NCBI GenBank assembly: GCA_021272315.1
Contig: JAJSLI010000050.1
Span: forward strand, 1-64,000
From: Methylacidiphilales bacterium
GTDB lineage: Bacteria; Verrucomicrobiota; Verrucomicrobiia; Methylacidiphilales; UBA1321
DNA: 64,000 nucleotides
Direction: 5' to 3'
Within the stretch, counting starts at the first letter, position 1. Every line of letters starts with the position of its first letter. The position numbers and the translations under genes are program-made. Of the stretch, positions 31,267-40,291 are shown one piece after another. The notes beneath the pieces were generated by a model that was given only the letters and a program-made list of their open reading frames with translations, was not told the origin of the DNA and ran no database searches.

Positions 31267-32742
31267 ATGTTGGAACCGCTTCCCGCGTCGCAGTGGAACG
31301 AAACCACCGCCGCCCATCTGCTCAATCGGGCCGGATTCGGCGGCAGCCCGGCGGAAATCGACCGGCTCCGCCAGATGGGCTTGGGCGGCGCCGTCTCCTG
31401 GTTCGTCAATTACGAACGCATCCCGGACGAAACCCCCGCACCCGATTGGGCCCATCCCGACCCCAACTACCTTGCGCAACGCCAGGCCATCCAGCAGGCC
31501 GCCGATCCGGAAACCAAGAAGGCCCTGCAGCGCATGCAGTACCAGAATGAATACCAGCAAATGGCCGACCTCCGCTACTGGTGGGTCCGCCGGATGGCCC
31601 TCGGCCCGCGCCCCTTCCAGGAAAAGATGACTCTCTTCTGGCACGGCCACTTTGCCACCAGCTTCGAGAAAGTTCAGTCGCCCTTTTTGCTCTGGCAGCA
31701 GAACGAAACACTCCGGCAAAACGCCACCGGGAATTTCTACCAGATCCTCACCGCCGTGGCCGAAGACCCCGCCATGCTCCGTTACCTCGACGGCGCCCAA
31801 AGCCGCAAGGGCAAGCCCAACGAGAATTTTGCCCGCGAAGTCCTCGAACTCTTCACCCTCGGCGAGGGCCATTACACCGAGCAGGACATCCAGCAGTCGG
31901 CCAAGGCCTACACCGGCTGGGGCATCGACCGCAGCCAGATGAGCTACGAATACCATCCCTCCAACCACGACAACGGTCCCAAAACCGTTTTTGGCCAGAC
32001 CGGCAACTTCACCGGTGAAGACGTCCTCAACCTGATCTGCGACAACCCCCAGTGCGCCAAATTCATCACCGGTAAAATCTGGCGCTTCTTCGTTCAGGAC
32101 CAGCCGCCCGAGCCGGTCATCGACGCCCTCGCCGCCGATTTTCACAGCCACGGCATGGACCTCAAGCACCTGATGACCACCATCTTCAGTTCAAAGGAAT
32201 TCTACGCCCCCGACGTCATCCGTTCCCAGATCAAGAGTCCCGTCCAGTGGCTCATTGCCAGCACCCACCAGCTCGAAGCTCCGCTGCCAACCCAGCCCAT
32301 GACCCTCGTCATGCTCGCGCAACTCGGCCAGGAACTTTTCCAGCCCCCCAACGTCAAGGGCTGGGACGGCGGCATCGCGTGGATCACCACCAACAGCCTC
32401 ATGGACCGCTACAATTTCGCAGCCGCGCTCGTCGAGGGCCAGCGCGTTCCCCTCCCCGGCCTCATGGGCCAGATGCGCAGCGTCATGCACAACAACGTCT
32501 CCGAAAACAATCTCATGGAACTCTCGCCCGTCGACGTCAACGCCCTCTTCACCCCGGTCCAATTGGTCGATTCGGAAAATTTCCTCGCCGCCCTCGAGGC
32601 CCGCTTCATCAACGGCACCCTCGGCGACCAGCGCCAGAACACCCTCCAGGATTTCCTGAAACATCGATCACCCATCGAGGAAATCGACATCCGCAAAGCC
32701 ATCCGCCTCATCATGTGCACCCCCGAGTATCAACTCACATAA
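31267..32742 (+). CDS. DUF1800 family protein
   Basis: This 491-residue protein is a full-length DUF1800 member: WNETTAAHLLNRAGFGGSPAEIDRL, YWWVRRMALGPRPFQEKMTLFWHGHFATS, NENFAREVLELFTLGEGHYTEQDIQQSAKAYTGW, and NVKGWDGGIAWITTNSLM. The family is widespread in Planctomycetota and Verrucomicrobiota and nearly always sits next to a DUF1501 gene, as here (13 bases). No Sec signal is visible, though partners are exported. The biochemical role is unknown. Confidence 0.92.
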   Translation: MLEPLPASQWNETTAAHLLNRAGFGGSPAEIDRLRQMGLGGAVSWFVNYERIPDETPAPDWAHPDPNYLAQRQAIQQAADPETKKALQRMQYQNEYQQMADLRYWWVRRMALGPRPFQEKMTLFWHGHFATSFEKVQSPFLLWQQNETLRQNATGNFYQILTAVAEDPAMLRYLDGAQSRKGKPNENFAREVLELFTLGEGHYTEQDIQQSAKAYTGWGIDRSQMSYEYHPSNHDNGPKTVFGQTGNFTGEDVLNLICDNPQCAKFITGKIWRFFVQDQPPEPVIDALAADFHSHGMDLKHLMTTIFSSKEFYAPDVIRSQIKSPVQWLIASTHQLEAPLPTQPMTLVMLAQLGQELFQPPNVKGWDGGIAWITTNSLMDRYNFAAALVEGQRVPLPGLMGQMRSVMHNNVSENNLMELSPVDVNALFTPVQLVDSENFLAALEARFINGTLGDQRQNTLQDFLKHRSPIEEIDIRKAIRLIMCTPEYQLT

Positions 32743-32755
32743 TGAAGTACCCACC

Positions 32756-34093
32756 ATGAAAAACCCCATCCTCACCACCCGCCGCAACTTTCTCCGCACC
32801 ACCCTCCTCGGCGGCGCGCTTTCATGGACCGTACCCAGCTTCGTCGCCCAGACCTTCGACGTCCTCCACGCCGCCACCGACGGCGCCCTCACCCAGGTCA
32901 ACACCGGCAAGGACGGCACCATCCTCGTCCTCATCCAGCTTGCCGGCGGCAACGACGGCCTCAACGCCGTTGTCCCCTACACCAACGACTACTATTATCA
33001 GGCCCGCCCCACCCTCGGCATCCCTCATGACCAGGTACTGCCCCTCAACGACACACTCGGCCTCAACCCCTCCATGACCGGCTTCAAGTCCCTCTTCGAC
33101 AGCGGCCATCTCTCCATTGTCAACGGCGTCGGCTATCCCAACCCCAACCGCAGCCACTTCCGCTCCACTGAAATCTGGCAGACCGCGAGCGACGAAGACC
33201 GCTACCTCACCAACGGCTGGATCGGACGCTACTTCGACAACGCCTGCGCCGGATGCGACGCCACCGTCGGCATCAACATCGGCCCGCGCCTGCCCCAGGC
33301 CTTCGCCTCCGCCACCCCCACCGGCGTCAGCATCGAAAACCCCGACAACTACCGTTTCGTCAGCGCCGGCAAAAACGACGACGAGGAACTCGCCTACCGC
33401 AGCATGTACGCCCCGCCCGACGATCCCCTCGGCGATGCCTCCGGCGGCAACTCCGGCGGCAGCATCAGCATGGTCTCCGGCACCGTCACCCTCCACAACG
33501 GCCAGAGCGCGGTCGACTTCCTCGAACGCACCGCCATGAACGCCCAGTTCAGCTCCGACAAAATCCGCGCCATCGTCGCCAAGACCCGGGACACCTTCCA
33601 GTATCCCCCGGGCCCCCTCGCCCGCAACCTGCAACTCGTCGCCCGCCTCATCACCGGCGGCCTCACCAGCCGCGTCTACTACGTCTCGCAGGGCGGCTAC
33701 GACACCCACACCTTCCAGCGCGGCGCCCAGGACGGCCGCCTCAAGGAACTCGCCGACTCGGTCAAGGCCTTCACCGACGACCTCCAGGCCTCGGGCGTCT
33801 TCGACCGCGTCATGATCATGACCTTCAGCGAGTTTGGCCGCCGCGTCCTCGAAAACGGCAGCCGCGGCACCGACCACGGCGCCGCCGCCCCCATGTTCCT
33901 CATCGGGCCCAACATGAAATCGGGCCTCCTCGGCGCCGAACCCAGCCTCGCCCCCGCCGACCTCCTCGACGGCGACATCAAGTACAACACCGATTTCCGC
34001 AGCGTCTACGCCAGCATCCTCCAGTCGTGGCTCGGCGCCAATTCCGTACCCATCCTCGGCAAACAGTTCGATACCCTGCCCATCCTCGGCTGA
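32756..34093 (+). CDS. DUF1501 family Tat-exported protein
   Basis: This 445-residue protein has a twin-arginine signal (TTRRNFLRTTLLGGALSWTVPSF), which implies export folded, probably with a cofactor or metal. DUF1501 members belong to the alkaline phosphatase/sulfatase-like fold: VLIQLAGGNDGLNAVVPY, SHFRSTEIWQTA, GGYDTHTFQ, MIMTFSEFGRRVLENGSRGTDHGAAAPMFLIG contain the conserved Asn/Asp/His residues. It is co-transcribed with the DUF1800 gene. Substrate unknown. Confidence 0.93.
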   Translation: MKNPILTTRRNFLRTTLLGGALSWTVPSFVAQTFDVLHAATDGALTQVNTGKDGTILVLIQLAGGNDGLNAVVPYTNDYYYQARPTLGIPHDQVLPLNDTLGLNPSMTGFKSLFDSGHLSIVNGVGYPNPNRSHFRSTEIWQTASDEDRYLTNGWIGRYFDNACAGCDATVGINIGPRLPQAFASATPTGVSIENPDNYRFVSAGKNDDEELAYRSMYAPPDDPLGDASGGNSGGSISMVSGTVTLHNGQSAVDFLERTAMNAQFSSDKIRAIVAKTRDTFQYPPGPLARNLQLVARLITGGLTSRVYYVSQGGYDTHTFQRGAQDGRLKELADSVKAFTDDLQASGVFDRVMIMTFSEFGRRVLENGSRGTDHGAAAPMFLIGPNMKSGLLGAEPSLAPADLLDGDIKYNTDFRSVYASILQSWLGANSVPILGKQFDTLPILG

Positions 34094-34338: not shown

Positions 34339-34376
34339 AGTACAATTGTACTTGACGTGTCGCGTACGAATGTACT
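34339..34376 (+). promoter_or_regulatory. Candidate BlaI operator
   Basis: A perfect 14-bp palindrome AGTACAATTGTACT lies at 34339-34352 and a second, imperfect site GTACGAATGTACT at 34364-34376. Both contain the TACA/TGTA half-sites recognised by BlaI/MecI-type repressors. Centres are about 24 bases apart. TTGACG (34352-34357) between them may be a -35. They end 11 bases before the BlaI start, so autorepression is expected. Confidence 0.65.
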
Positions 34377-34387
34377 AAACACGACTC

Positions 34388-34765
34388 ATGGGCAAGTCCC
34401 CGCGCATCTCCGAGGCCGAATGGGTCGTCATGGAGGTCGTCTGGCGCAGGCACCCCGTCACCGCCCTGGAGGTGGTGCGGCAACTGGCCGCCCACAAGCA
34501 ATGGCAGGACCAGACCATCCGGACCATGTTGCGCCGCCTCATCCGCAAAAAGGCGCTCAGTTACCGGGCCGAGGGCAAAACCTATTACTATTCGCCCGCC
34601 GTCAGCCGCGAGCAATGCGTGCGGGGCGAGAGCCGGTCGTTCCTCGAGCGCGTGTTCGGCGGCGCGGCGCATCCGCTCCTGGTCCAACTCGTGCAGGAAG
34701 CCAAACTTTCGCCGGAGGAAATCGCGGAACTGAAACGCATCCTCCGGAATAAGGAAAAAAGATGA
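34388..34765 (+). CDS. BlaI/MecI family repressor
   Basis: This 125-residue protein has the winged-helix of BlaI/MecI/CopY (ISEAEWVVMEVVWRRHPVTALEVV, WQDQTIRTMLRRLIRKKALSYRAEGKTYYYSPAVSREQCV) and a helical dimerisation tail (HPLLVQLVQEAKLSPEEIAELKRIL). It would bind the upstream TACA/TGTA dyads and be inactivated through the M56 peptidase encoded 292 bases downstream. Pairs of BlaI with M56 proteins occur far beyond beta-lactam resistance; no beta-lactamase is near. Confidence 0.93.
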   Translation: MGKSPRISEAEWVVMEVVWRRHPVTALEVVRQLAAHKQWQDQTIRTMLRRLIRKKALSYRAEGKTYYYSPAVSREQCVRGESRSFLERVFGGAAHPLLVQLVQEAKLSPEEIAELKRILRNKEKR

Positions 34766-34790
34766 ACGCCGACTTATTGTGCCCGCCACA

Positions 34791-34946
34791 CCCTCGTTCC
34801 CAAATTTCATTTGGGAACGCCCTTTTGCTCCCCGCGAAATTTCATTTCGCGCTCATGTTCCCATCCGTCCTATCAGTCCCATTTTTACCCTCGTTCCCAA
34901 ATTTCATTTGGGAACGCCCTTTTGCTCCCCGCGAAATTTCATTTCG
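34791..34946. repeat. Two copies of a 59-bp double-hairpin repeat
   Basis: A 59-base unit occurs identically at 34791-34849 and 34888-34946. Each copy holds two hairpins with the same five-base loop TTTCA: CGTTCCCAAA/TTTGGGAACG (first copy 34795-34819) and GCGAAA/TTTCGC (34834-34850). The units sit in the gap between the BlaI gene and the M56-ankyrin gene and could act on the bicistronic message. Only the last base pair of the second hairpin differs (TTTCGT in copy two). Confidence 0.85.
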
Positions 34947-35007
34947 TGCCAACTCAAACAGCTCTTCATCGCATCGAGATCGGCAATGAAATTACCTCAG
35001 CAAGCGC

Positions 35008-35032
35008 GTTCCCAAGTAAAACTTGGGAACGA
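35008..35032. repeat. Third GTTCCCAA-type hairpin
   Basis: CGTTCCCAAGT-AAA-ACTTGGGAACG is an 11-bp perfect stem with a three-base loop. It is the same hairpin family as the two 59-bp units upstream but with a different loop. It ends 24 bases before the start of the M56-ankyrin gene, so it could hide or expose that ribosome site. Confidence 0.8.
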
Positions 35033-35056
35033 GGAAGAAAAACTCCCGCCAAACAA

Positions 35057-38000
35057 ATGATTCCTCTTTTCCTCCACAACTTGGAATTGATCTTCTTCTG
35101 GCTGCTGGCGGCCTCGTGGCAGGCTTCGGTCCTGGCCCTGATCGTGCTGGCTGTGCAGACGGTGTTGCGGGGCCGGCTCAATCCCCGCTGGCGCTATGCC
35201 CTGTGGCTGCTCGTCGTTCTGCGCCTGGTGATGCCGGCGCTGCCGGAAAGCGCGCTGAGCCTGTTCCAGTTTGCCCCAACGCCCTCCCCTGTCCTGCTGA
35301 CACCGGTGACGGAACCGCTTTTTGCGCCGGCGGCTCCAATTTCGCCCGCGGTTGCGACCCCTTTGACCGAACCAAGCTCTCCGTTGACCCTTTACTCGCT
35401 GCTGGCGATGGGCTGGCTGGCCGGCGCCGTCATTCTGCTCATTTTGACCTGGGAAGCCAACCGGCGCTTTGCCCGGCAGATGACCCGGTCGCCCGAGATC
35501 ACCGACCCCGCGCTGCTCGACTTGTTTCTCGCGGCGAAAGCGGAACTCGAGGTGCGGCGCCCGATCCGGCTGGTCGAGAACGGGCAGGTGCAGAGTCCCG
35601 CGATCATGGGCCTCTTCTCGCCGACCCTGTTGCTGCCGGGCGGAGTCCGGGACCGCTTCGACGCGACCGAACTGCGGCTCATTTTCTTGCATGAACTCGC
35701 CCACCTGAAACGCGGCGACGTCATCGTGCAGGGACTCATCGCCCTCCTGCAAATCCTCCACTGGTTCAACCCGGTCCTCTGGTACGCCTTCCGCCGGATG
35801 CGCATCGACCGCGAACCGGCCACCGACGCCCTCGTCCTTTCGCGCGCCGGCGAAGCCGAGAAGGAACGCTACGGCCTCATGCTCATCAAGCTGCTGGAAC
35901 ATTTCAACCAGCGCCATTCCCTCCCCACCCTCGTCGGCATCCTCGAAGACAAGGACCAGTTCAAGCGCCGCTTCTCCCTCATCGCGAAATTCACCCGCGG
36001 CGCGTACGGCTGGTCGCTTCTGGGGATTTTGCTCATCGGCATTCTTTCCGTGGCGTGTCTGACGAAAAGTAAATCAATAGCTTCACCGAGCGACACCAAA
36101 GCGTTGGCAAAAATCAGTTCTGAACAAGCGAAACCGAATGGCCAGCAATTGATCGACGCAGCCGGGCGGGAAGACATTCCTGAAATGACCCGGCTTTTGA
36201 ACCTCGGCACCGATGTCAATTATCGTGAAAAGGACGGATGGACTCCGATTACCAGGGCGGTGGAATCGAATAAAGCCGGTTCGGTCAAATTCCTTTTGGC
36301 ACATGGCGCAGATTCAACGCACGGTCTTAATGACAACGATCAAACCCTGCTTTTCAATGTGAGAAGTCCCGAAGTTGCGGAAATCCTGATCCAGCATGGC
36401 GTCGATGTAAACGCCCGCTCAAAAAGCGGGGAGACCGCGCTCGACAGACTTTGCATGTTCGCGGAAAAGCCGGCGGAAGTAGCCCGTGTCCTTTTAAAAC
36501 ACGGAGCCGATCCCAATGCCCGCGACAATTACGGCTCAACGCCGCTGATGTTTGCCTCCGACGGGGCGACGGTGGATCTCTTGATCGATCATGGTGCCGA
36601 TATCAAAGCCAAGAACAAATATGGCGTTGGTGTTCTGCATAATCCTCGGGGCGATGCCAGCCGACTCCAAGCCCTGATCCGGCACGGCGCGCCGTTTGAC
36701 CCGAAAACCGACGGGCCAACCCTGATGATGGAGGCAGCTTGGTTCGATCATGTCGATGTCATCGCTTATTTGCTCAGCCTCGGCGTCGATCCGAACCAGA
36801 AGGGAACATGGAATGAGAAAGCCGACATGTATTTTACCCCTTTGCAACAGTCCGTAATCAGCGGGCACTTGGATGCCGCAAAATTTCTCCTGGAGCATGG
36901 GGCAAAATTCGTACCGCACCTCTTTAACGGGAAACCGGGACCCGATGAGATGGTCAACGCGCTTTATAACCGGCGTAAGGACATCGTTCGGCTTTTTTGG
37001 GAGCACGGCATGCGGAGCATTTCCGAATTGACCTACGCCATCAGCCAGGGAGAACCCGTCGGCGCGGTGCAAAAACTCCTGGACGGCGGTATTCCGCCCG
37101 ATCCGCCACAGGACAAATTCATGTCTCCTCTCGCGCTTGCCGCCGAACTCGGCCAACTCGATGTCGTCACCCTTCTGGTGCAACGGGGAGCGAAAATCAA
37201 TGGTCATGTGGCTCCGTCCGTAACGCCCATCGATCAAGCTGCCATGGAGGGACAAGACGAAGTCGTCGATTATCTCCTGCGCCAGGGAGCGCAGGTCGAT
37301 TACCAGGCTCTCTATAATGCCATATGGAATTCTTATCCGGGTCCAGATCAGCGCAGCAAGGATCATTTTGAGAGAACAGCGAAGCTGCTGATCGATGCGG
37401 GAGCCTTGAAAACAACCACCTCGGAACAAAACGGACAAATCTTGGTCGGGGCCATCGATACACGAGACCCAGGCGGTAACACCACGGTGCTCAAGATGTT
37501 ATTGGAAGCGGGTTTAAGCCCCGAATCGCCCATGCCCTACCTTAAAAACGGGGAGAAACCCAATTCCGTCATCGGCTATTACCGGGACTTTTACCGGAAA
37601 AATAAAGACGATCCAAGTAACGGCCCGTTCGCGGCCATGATCAAGCCGTTCCTGGATATGCTCGAAGCGGCGGACAAGAGCGCAACGCCGAAAGCCGATG
37701 CGGGAACCAACGCGACTGATGCCAACGCCCAAATGCCCCAAGCCGTCCAGAAAGGTGACGCGGCTACTGTGCAAAAGTTGATCGACCAGGGAGCTGATCC
37801 GAAAGCAATCGACAAATACGGAAGGACGTTGCTCTTCGATGCCGGTAGCCCGGAAGTTGCAGAAATCCTGATCGCCCACGGAGTTGATCCCAATGCCCGC
37901 GATCAAGGAGGTCATGTCGCCTTGTTCAATCTTTGCCAGAATGGAAGCAAGGATGTGACGGCAACGGCGACCGTGCGCGTGTTACTTGATCATGGAGCCG

Positions 38001-40291
38001 ATTTTGATCCCAAGGGCCAAAGCGGCGCGACGGCTCTCGGGTTCGCGGCTGCGTCCAATGACGTTAAGCTCATGAAATTTCTCATGGATCGTGGCGTTAG
38101 CCCAAACGCCCATGGAGCGGAAAATCAGGACTCGCCGCTCGGCATGGCGGCATTCCGCAGCCCGGAGGCCGTGAAACTCCTGCTGGAGCGGGGCGCCGAT
38201 CCCGAAGGCTATTCGCACGAAGGGATGAGTCCGCTGGCCGCGGCCATCATGTTCAACAAGACTGAGAACGCGAATCTTCTGCGCGCTGCCGGTGCGCACG
38301 ATGTCGGCGACCTGTCCGCCGCGGTCGCCGCAGGAGATAATGCAAAAGTCGCGGCTCTTCTCCACGACGGAGCCAACGTTAACGAGACAGACCGCGCCGG
38401 CAACACGCCACTTCTCTACGCCGTTCGGCGTGGCCAGGTCGATATGGCGAAATTGCTCCTGGCGCACGGCGCCAACATCAATCAATTCAGTTTCGGCGGT
38501 TTGACACCAACGGACAGTCTGGATGAGGAGGCTAATTCAGGCAGGCCCGATCAGGCCCAGTTGGATTGGGGCGTATCGCAGGAGGAAGGTCAGCGCCGTC
38601 TTGCGGCCTTCAAGGCGCTCTTTTTGAACTATCCCCCCGATCCGAATTACCGGGACAGTCGTGGTCGAACGGCCCTGCATCAGGCCGCCTTTTCGGGAAA
38701 TGTCTTCCTCCCGATGGGGGACAAGGCCCATCCGGTGGATCCCAATATTCGGGATCATGATGGGAATACGCCCCTTCTTCTGGCCGCTCTTTCTCCGCAT
38801 GTCAAATATACCGTTGATCGAAGCTCGAATTCCCAAGCTTACATCGTCAACAGGCTTCTCAAGGCCGGGGCGAAGCTCGACCTCGTTATGGCAAATGGAA
38901 AGACGGTGGGCGAAATGGCCATGGCCGCAGCGGTCAAAGCCAATAATCCGCAATTGATCTCCGTCCTGCACGATGCCGGTGTCGCCGAGCCTGCTTCTCC
39001 GCCGGAATCTCCCGACCAGGGCGCGGGAACCAATGCGACCAATGCCGTCCAAGCTCCCACACTCAACGTTCCCAAATTCACACTCAGCCTACCCCCATCC
39101 ACCACCACGAACACCGAAGGTTCGATAAGTCAACCACGCTCCCCCATTCACATCACACCCACCGTTCCCCTGCCCCCAAACCCCAACAACGGAGTTTATT
39201 ATGGTAGCGTTACTGTCGTCACGGTTAGCGGTCCCATGGCTACCCCCGTGAACGGAGGAGATAAGGATACCAACGCCATCAACACCGTTGGAAATCCTGC
39301 GCTCGCTCAGGCCCTGATCGCTGCCATCAAGCAGGACGATCTTGCCGAAGTGGAACGCCTGCTCAAGCAGGGAGCAAAGTTGAGCGAAAGCGACGTTTTG
39401 GTAGTGGCGGCAACCAAAAATCAAAAACTGGTCCAACTATTGCGGCAATACAAGTCGCTTCCGATTTCCGACCTTGCCTGGGCCGTGCTGGAAAACAGGT
39501 CCGAGGACGAAATTGTGGAAATAGAGGAGAAGGAGGCGGAGGAAGCGAAGGAGAAGATAGGACTGCCCTTGGAACTACCGGATTCTATCTTGATACCCAC
39601 ATTATTTCATCCGAATGCGGTACTAATTAGTCGTGGTGATAAGCTTAGCATTCTCGAATTCCAATTACCGCTTCACGAAATAGGCGATCTCTCGATATTC
39701 GACGACTCCACGGTACCTTTGCCCGTTGCCGCCCTGATGGGCGATCTTCCCACGGTTGAGCTGCTTTTGCAGAATGGCGTCAACCCCAACGCCCTTCCCT
39801 GGACCAATTGGTCCAACCCGTGGTTGTCCGTATCCCCCCTTTCGCTGGCGGCGCTTGCTGGTCATGACGACGTGGTTGTTTATCTTCTCCAACATGGAGC
39901 CAAAGCTCACTTTAATGACATCGCTTGTGTGATGCAGGGTTGGCCTTCCGCTTCTCGTTCACAGGAAACCCGCGAAAATACGGTCAAACTGATGATTGCG
40001 ACGGGCGCGCTAAAAAATATCACCGAAGAACAGACCGCCTTTCTTTTTGAATCATCTTTCCGAAGCCCCGAATGGAACCTGAGCATCGTCAAACTTCTGC
40101 TCGATGCGGGACTCAATCCGAACGCTCGAAGCGCCGACCCCGGTAAAACGGTTATCGACCTGACAAAAGAGCGGATCGATCAGGAAGCGAAATATAGCCC
40201 GGAATGGGAAACGAAATATCACTTCCAGCGAAACACCAAGCCCCTTTTGGAACTGCTCGAAAATGCCGCGTCCAACGCGAACGTCAGGTAA
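35057..40291 (+). CDS. M56 (BlaR1-type) membrane metallopeptidase fused to a giant ankyrin-repeat array
   Basis: This 1744-residue protein starts with a BlaR1/MecR1-like module: membrane helices at about 10-36, 46-62 and 110-132, a zinc peptidase with HELAHLKRGD (HExxH at 212-216) and the downstream DREPATDALVL (about 251-261), then a fourth helix at about 317-335. Beyond residue 350 almost everything is ankyrin repeats (hallmarks G-x-TPL, LLxxGAxxN, VDLLIDHGADI, AKLLLAHGANIN), in about three blocks separated by Thr/Ala/Asn or Pro-rich linkers (near 875 and 1320-1400). In BlaR1 the part after helix 4 faces outside and senses the ligand; here the ankyrin array takes that place. Start at ATG 35057 (first residues form the helix); the frame continues upstream through hairpin repeats and was not used. 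It would inactivate the BlaI-type repressor encoded upstream. Confidence 0.88.
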   Translation: MIPLFLHNLELIFFWLLAASWQASVLALIVLAVQTVLRGRLNPRWRYALWLLVVLRLVMPALPESALSLFQFAPTPSPVLLTPVTEPLFAPAAPISPAVATPLTEPSSPLTLYSLLAMGWLAGAVILLILTWEANRRFARQMTRSPEITDPALLDLFLAAKAELEVRRPIRLVENGQVQSPAIMGLFSPTLLLPGGVRDRFDATELRLIFLHELAHLKRGDVIVQGLIALLQILHWFNPVLWYAFRRMRIDREPATDALVLSRAGEAEKERYGLMLIKLLEHFNQRHSLPTLVGILEDKDQFKRRFSLIAKFTRGAYGWSLLGILLIGILSVACLTKSKSIASPSDTKALAKISSEQAKPNGQQLIDAAGREDIPEMTRLLNLGTDVNYREKDGWTPITRAVESNKAGSVKFLLAHGADSTHGLNDNDQTLLFNVRSPEVAEILIQHGVDVNARSKSGETALDRLCMFAEKPAEVARVLLKHGADPNARDNYGSTPLMFASDGATVDLLIDHGADIKAKNKYGVGVLHNPRGDASRLQALIRHGAPFDPKTDGPTLMMEAAWFDHVDVIAYLLSLGVDPNQKGTWNEKADMYFTPLQQSVISGHLDAAKFLLEHGAKFVPHLFNGKPGPDEMVNALYNRRKDIVRLFWEHGMRSISELTYAISQGEPVGAVQKLLDGGIPPDPPQDKFMSPLALAAELGQLDVVTLLVQRGAKINGHVAPSVTPIDQAAMEGQDEVVDYLLRQGAQVDYQALYNAIWNSYPGPDQRSKDHFERTAKLLIDAGALKTTTSEQNGQILVGAIDTRDPGGNTTVLKMLLEAGLSPESPMPYLKNGEKPNSVIGYYRDFYRKNKDDPSNGPFAAMIKPFLDMLEAADKSATPKADAGTNATDANAQMPQAVQKGDAATVQKLIDQGADPKAIDKYGRTLLFDAGSPEVAEILIAHGVDPNARDQGGHVALFNLCQNGSKDVTATATVRVLLDHGADFDPKGQSGATALGFAAASNDVKLMKFLMDRGVSPNAHGAENQDSPLGMAAFRSPEAVKLLLERGADPEGYSHEGMSPLAAAIMFNKTENANLLRAAGAHDVGDLSAAVAAGDNAKVAALLHDGANVNETDRAGNTPLLYAVRRGQVDMAKLLLAHGANINQFSFGGLTPTDSLDEEANSGRPDQAQLDWGVSQEEGQRRLAAFKALFLNYPPDPNYRDSRGRTALHQAAFSGNVFLPMGDKAHPVDPNIRDHDGNTPLLLAALSPHVKYTVDRSSNSQAYIVNRLLKAGAKLDLVMANGKTVGEMAMAAAVKANNPQLISVLHDAGVAEPASPPESPDQGAGTNATNAVQAPTLNVPKFTLSLPPSTTTNTEGSISQPRSPIHITPTVPLPPNPNNGVYYGSVTVVTVSGPMATPVNGGDKDTNAINTVGNPALAQALIAAIKQDDLAEVERLLKQGAKLSESDVLVVAATKNQKLVQLLRQYKSLPISDLAWAVLENRSEDEIVEIEEKEAEEAKEKIGLPLELPDSILIPTLFHPNAVLISRGDKLSILEFQLPLHEIGDLSIFDDSTVPLPVAALMGDLPTVELLLQNGVNPNALPWTNWSNPWLSVSPLSLAALAGHDDVVVYLLQHGAKAHFNDIACVMQGWPSASRSQETRENTVKLMIATGALKNITEEQTAFLFESSFRSPEWNLSIVKLLLDAGLNPNARSADPGKTVIDLTKERIDQEAKYSPEWETKYHFQRNTKPLLELLENAASNANVR

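Follow-up and report, generated by a model that had tools for sequence, protein, structure and literature searches.

The 64,000-nucleotide stretch of a Methylacidiphilales draft genome analysed here (the window; GCA_021272315.1, contig JAJSLI010000050.1, positions 1 to 64,000) carries a BlaI-type repressor gene followed by the gene of an M56 membrane protease with a long tail of ankyrin repeats. We regard this pair, with a probability of about two in three, as a derepression switch of the BlaI/BlaR1 type in which the penicillin sensor has been replaced by an exported ankyrin module. The gene order, the operators, the catalytic residues, the BlaR1-like fold and the repeated exchange of the tail between proteases are the observed parts on which this reading builds. 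Every part is already known; searches of the open-licence literature for M56 or BlaR1 proteins with ankyrin repeats gave no description of the combination (most subscription journals lie outside this coverage).

A BlaR1-like protease next to a BlaI-type repressor

The repressor gene (34388 to 34765, forward strand) encodes 125 residues with a Penicillinase_R winged-helix domain (Pfam, E 2.3e-35, 121.8 bits against a cut-off of 22.6), which places it in the BlaI/MecI family and agrees with the original prediction of a normal BlaI gene. It is the sole Penicillinase_R match in the draft genome, and the protease that adjoins it is the sole M56 protein. The 291 bases between the two genes contain REP-like repeats (34790 to 35031; two exact 63-nt copies and one diverged 25-nt relative; repeat sequence CGTTCCCAAATTTCATTTGGGAACG, with 16 sites in the genome at up to 2 mismatches), which are probably an insertion in the operon. 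An upstream start for the protease, TTG at 34811 (1826 aa), was rejected because its frame would read through these elements. Many related loci have almost no gap between BlaI and M56. Tandem DUF1800 and DUF1501 genes (31267 to 34093) lie directly upstream of the operon.

The protease gene runs from an ATG at 35057 to a stop at 40291 and encodes 1744 residues, the first 345 of which (35057 to 36091, forward strand) form an M56 core with four transmembrane helices, TM4 spanning residues ~318-336. The Pfam M56 match covers residues 16-309 (E 1.3e-63, 215.4 bits against a cut-off of 31), and the gluzincin-type zinc site (ligands H212, H216 and E253) consists of H212-E213-x-x-H216 and E253-x-x-x-D257, aligned with the HEXXH and E242XXXD zinc motifs of BlaR1 (PMC9834060); these five residues are invariant in 9/9 aligned related cores. 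When a profile of the nine cores was compared with solved structures, BlaR1 alone was matched (8EXP, 8EXS; E ~1e-19), with HExxH and the second glutamate in register. An AlphaFold model of residues 1-891 had a mean pLDDT of 81.7, with low confidence in the TM2-TM3 loop and in the linker between TM4 and the ankyrins, and its structural comparison retrieved BlaR1 (8EXS, Z 20.6, rmsd 4.4, 255 residues aligned) amid many ankyrin matches. By analogy with BlaR1, the region around residues 290-300, with its invariant G294 and E297, would hold the autocleavage loop. The BlaR1-like helices and HELAH zinc site that had been read from the sequence are thus borne out, and so is the absence of a penicillin-binding sensor: a class D beta-lactamase-like (SxxK) domain was sought with Pfam and NCBIfam, and the tail gave ankyrin families only. 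The protein therefore lacks the C-terminal sensor that defines BlaR1/MecR1, and the blaR1_generic match covers positions 8-322 of 585, with 168 bits against a cut-off of 400.

The ankyrin tail and its exchange between proteases

Ank_2 matches the tail in 9 stretches (E 8.7e-100, 327.9 bits), in keeping with tandem units of ~33 residues, and a purpose-built repeat model recognised ~29 repeats, 18 of which score clearly, the remainder being weak or partial. The 1400-residue ankyrin tail that had been proposed is therefore present in substance, although not as one continuous array: the repeats form three blocks split by low-complexity linkers, all on the forward strand. Block 1 (36137 to 37696, residues ~361-880) is a module common to other M56 proteins and a secreted protein; block 2 (37724 to 38986, residues ~890-1310) is followed by a low-complexity linker with pLDDT mostly below 50 (38987 to 39289, residues ~1311-1411); and block 3 (39290 to 40261, residues ~1412-1735) is partly degenerate. 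The end of block 1 recurs in diverged form at residues ~1552-1735 (37% over 175 aa), and a poorly predicted stretch lies near residues 1490-1550. Blocks 2 and 3 were modelled with low confidence (pLDDT 65).

The history of the tail differs from that of the core. The nearest core is that of locus L033, from the same genus, with 74% identity in the core and 85% in BlaI, but its tail is weakly Wzz-like and without ankyrins; the alignment is close up to the LTK directly after TM4 and then collapses. In locus L034, from that genus too, identity is only 31% in the core and 24% in BlaI, yet 48% over 496 residues of the tail. On a tree of 107 M56 cores, made in a quick version, the ankyrin label needs 6 changes, at least 5 of them forced by well-supported branches. 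This mismatch and the tree indicate that the tail moves as a unit between distinct proteases; judged from these alignments, core and tail evolve separately and the tail has been exchanged repeatedly. In the single close pair that could be compared, the joint appears to be at TM4's outer face. Other M56 proteins of the order, mostly adjoining a BlaI gene, carry secretin, CarboxypepD_reg, DUF4019 or Wzz-like tails.

Several of these loci deserve mention. In three of them (L050:2374-6267, L051:4004-6802 and L054:2203-5583) an M56 gene beside BlaI has a secretin domain (PF00263) match in its tail, with E 2.6e-15 in L051 and a score under the curated cut-off in L050. In another (L044:4510-7251), likewise beside BlaI, the tail is made of degenerate helical repeats (DPxAAxxWAxxLP-like) that Pfam leaves unnamed.

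Operators and the extent of the regulon

Upstream of BlaI, a TTGAC box is flanked by two putative operator dyads, TACAATTGTA (34341 to 34350), directly upstream of this -35-like box, and TACGAATGTA (34365 to 34374), within the promoter spacer. The promoter-like region (34351 to 34380, forward strand), assigned by position, comprises TTGACG, a 17-base spacer with the second dyad, and CTAAAC as a weak -10. The double pattern occurs once in the 3.83 Mb genome and 0 times in a backward control, and a 19-base version of the operator, with up to 3 mismatches allowed, was also found once. Comparable pairs, similarly spaced around TTGAC (GTAGAC in L040), precede BlaI in L033 and L035-L042, some of their dyads being one base off the consensus, and the strict double pattern was found only at BlaI-M56 loci, in the window's genome and nine relatives. 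Since the double site is single in the genome, absent from the control and matched by similar pairs before the relatives' BlaI genes, the TACA/TGTA dyads, already noted in the original prediction, are conserved predicted operators and not a product of chance. In a second M56 clade (L034, L046, L049) the BlaI genes have other palindromes, so that the TACA/TGTA code is not common to every M56-ankyrin pair.

The genome-wide dyad search that had been suggested as a way to find regulated genes confirmed the double site as unique to its own operon and, for sites of the exact form, yielded no additional targets: the sole other GTACRNNTGTAC sites in the genome (C39 and C105) are both inside coding frames. 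Autoregulation alone is thus supported as regulation, and the response may consist of nothing else. With no second repressor target detected, the main rival to a sensor is that the array is itself what the operon serves to make: a scaffold or chaperone, exported and produced on demand, for which the M56 part would mainly be a regulated membrane anchor. The only known induced product would indeed be the M56-ankyrin protein, exported ankyrin proteins that stand alone occur commonly in the order, and a title cited in PMC3091734 describes the periplasmic ankyrin-like AnkB as required for optimal catalase activity in Pseudomonas aeruginosa. An anchor, however, fits poorly with catalytic residues conserved in all nine aligned cores, or with a tail that starts where BlaR1 has its sensor and is exchanged at that very point, and we hold this alternative to be considerably less probable than a sensory switch.

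Predicted topology and exported ankyrin proteins

The array is probably outside the inner membrane. Homology, model and charge pattern agree on this predicted topology: in addition to the BlaR1-like core with its TM4, there are Lys/Arg-rich stretches in loop 1 and in the segments that follow TM3 and precede TM4, whereas most members have a neutral or acidic TM2-TM3 loop; such a pattern would put the tail on the outside, the BlaR1 arrangement. Homologues of the array with signal-like N-termini lend independent support. A free-standing ankyrin protein of 514 residues (L057) is 49% identical to block 1 over 466 residues and begins with a signal-peptide-like segment, MKTIKYFVVPALILLALLSF; and when 22 free-standing ankyrin frames from the order were scored with a simple hydrophobicity rule rather than a trained predictor, about 16 showed a signal-like segment at the N-terminus or a lipobox, six of the ~16 being mutually close homologues and hence not independent. 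One such frame with a lipobox (L063) is found in the window's own genome.

Described ankyrin arrays are mostly intracellular, which, together with the mildly basic residues directly after TM4, would favor a cytoplasmic array recruiting substrates to the protease. This would demand a topology unlike that of BlaR1, against a BlaR1-like fold with TM4, a positive-inside pattern and secreted homologues of the array, and we consider it improbable. An array outside the membrane, as originally proposed, gains support from the BlaR1-like core and TM4, the charge pattern and the secreted homologues, and neither the model nor the charge pattern pointed to the cytoplasm. The accompanying statement that such arrays are rare there does not hold for this lineage, where exported ones are not rare; a periplasmic ankyrin-like protein, AnkB, is also known in Pseudomonas (cited in PMC3091734).

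Distribution of the fusion

The architecture had been presented as one without a name, and its implied uniqueness was contradicted by a search for other M56-ankyrin proteins: 12 further frames, each adjoining a BlaI gene, came to light in 8 more genomes from this order (G003, G004, G018, G020, G025, G030, G033 and G036). Including the window, there are 13 loci, spread over 4 genera in 3 families of a single order, represented here by 62 genomes. No fusion was detected outside the order in 338 and 388 genomes of the phylum, in a shallow search in which the best two candidates per genome were scored; and among 80 loci from a named genome collection ankyrins appeared only in L084, L085 and L090, apparently of the order members G036 and G020. 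In this sampling the fusion is restricted to one order. The idea that the gene is a decaying or mis-assembled one, an accidental joining of protease and repeats no longer functional, could draw on the REP-like repeats in the operon and on one relative (L043:4815-7734) interrupted by a TGA, itself either a decaying copy or an assembly error, but is very unlikely given the intact frame of 1744 codons, the zinc site, the operators and the 11 of 12 further fusions that are uninterrupted.

A search for conserved neighbors of the M56-ankyrin genes showed none that recur except among close relatives. The free-standing secreted ankyrin gene L057 (4835-6379, genome G004) is near aconitase (acnA), as is the M56-ankyrin gene of the window. 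Fusion in place beside aconitase is not claimed, as both ankyrin and M56 genes are missing from this position in five other genomes of the genus.

Proposed mechanism

In the switch that we favor, topology, BlaI cleavage and signaling path would follow those of BlaR1, by homology. At rest, BlaI would sit on both dyads and repress its own operon, while the M56 core would be held in the inner membrane with its zinc site on the cytoplasmic side and the ankyrin array hanging from TM4 into the periplasm. When the array binds or lets go of its partner, which is most likely a protein or other envelope component, the signal would reach the protease by way of TM4 and the TM2-TM3 loop, and the protease would then cleave BlaI and derepress the operon. 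Ankyrin repeats usually bind proteins, and a protein partner in the envelope is for that reason the most likely ligand. Of the earlier suggestion that a protein or envelope state is sensed rather than a beta-lactam, the second half fares better: the lack of a penicillin-binding domain makes a signal other than beta-lactam likely, and the proposed ligand keeps the rank of a candidate.

A more speculative extension, which we put forward with much less conviction, is that in this order the M56 core would be a general membrane platform whose extracytoplasmic sensors are swapped at one set position behind TM4; the longest arrays would then serve as binding rods or springs, reading out protein partners or the spacing of the envelope. 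We know of no bacterium in which ankyrin arrays signal across a membrane.

Comparison with known systems

Switches of the BlaR1 type are known chiefly for sensing antibiotics. A family that recurs with the protease, repressor and operators retained but an exported ankyrin array as its sensor would show that the same proteolytic route serves other signals and that the sensor can be exchanged at a defined boundary; its members would offer natural chimeras for testing how a signal passes across the membrane, as well as candidate modules for built biosensors.

As in the BlaR1/BlaI systems of Staphylococcus aureus and Bacillus licheniformis, and likewise in MecR1/MecI, the repressor gene adjoins that of an M56 zinc protease; TACA/TGTA dyads at the promoter and the HExxH and ExxxD motifs are also held in common with BlaR1/BlaI, as are, with BlaR1, the four membrane helices and the position of a C-terminal sensor after TM4 (PMC9834060). 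The window protein departs from BlaR1 in having ~29 ankyrin repeats instead of a penicillin-binding domain, and the system from BlaR1/BlaI in that no beta-lactamase or transpeptidase gene is under the double operator in the window's genome. With AnkB of P. aeruginosa, and with the secreted homologues in the order, it would share ankyrin repeats outside the cytoplasm, as predicted here; exported ankyrin proteins such as AnkB are unlinked to a protease or repressor, unlike the window protein. The M56 proteins of the order with secretin, CarboxypepD_reg, DUF4019 and Wzz-like tails have the M56 core and, mostly, the BlaI neighbor in common with it and differ in the C-terminal module.
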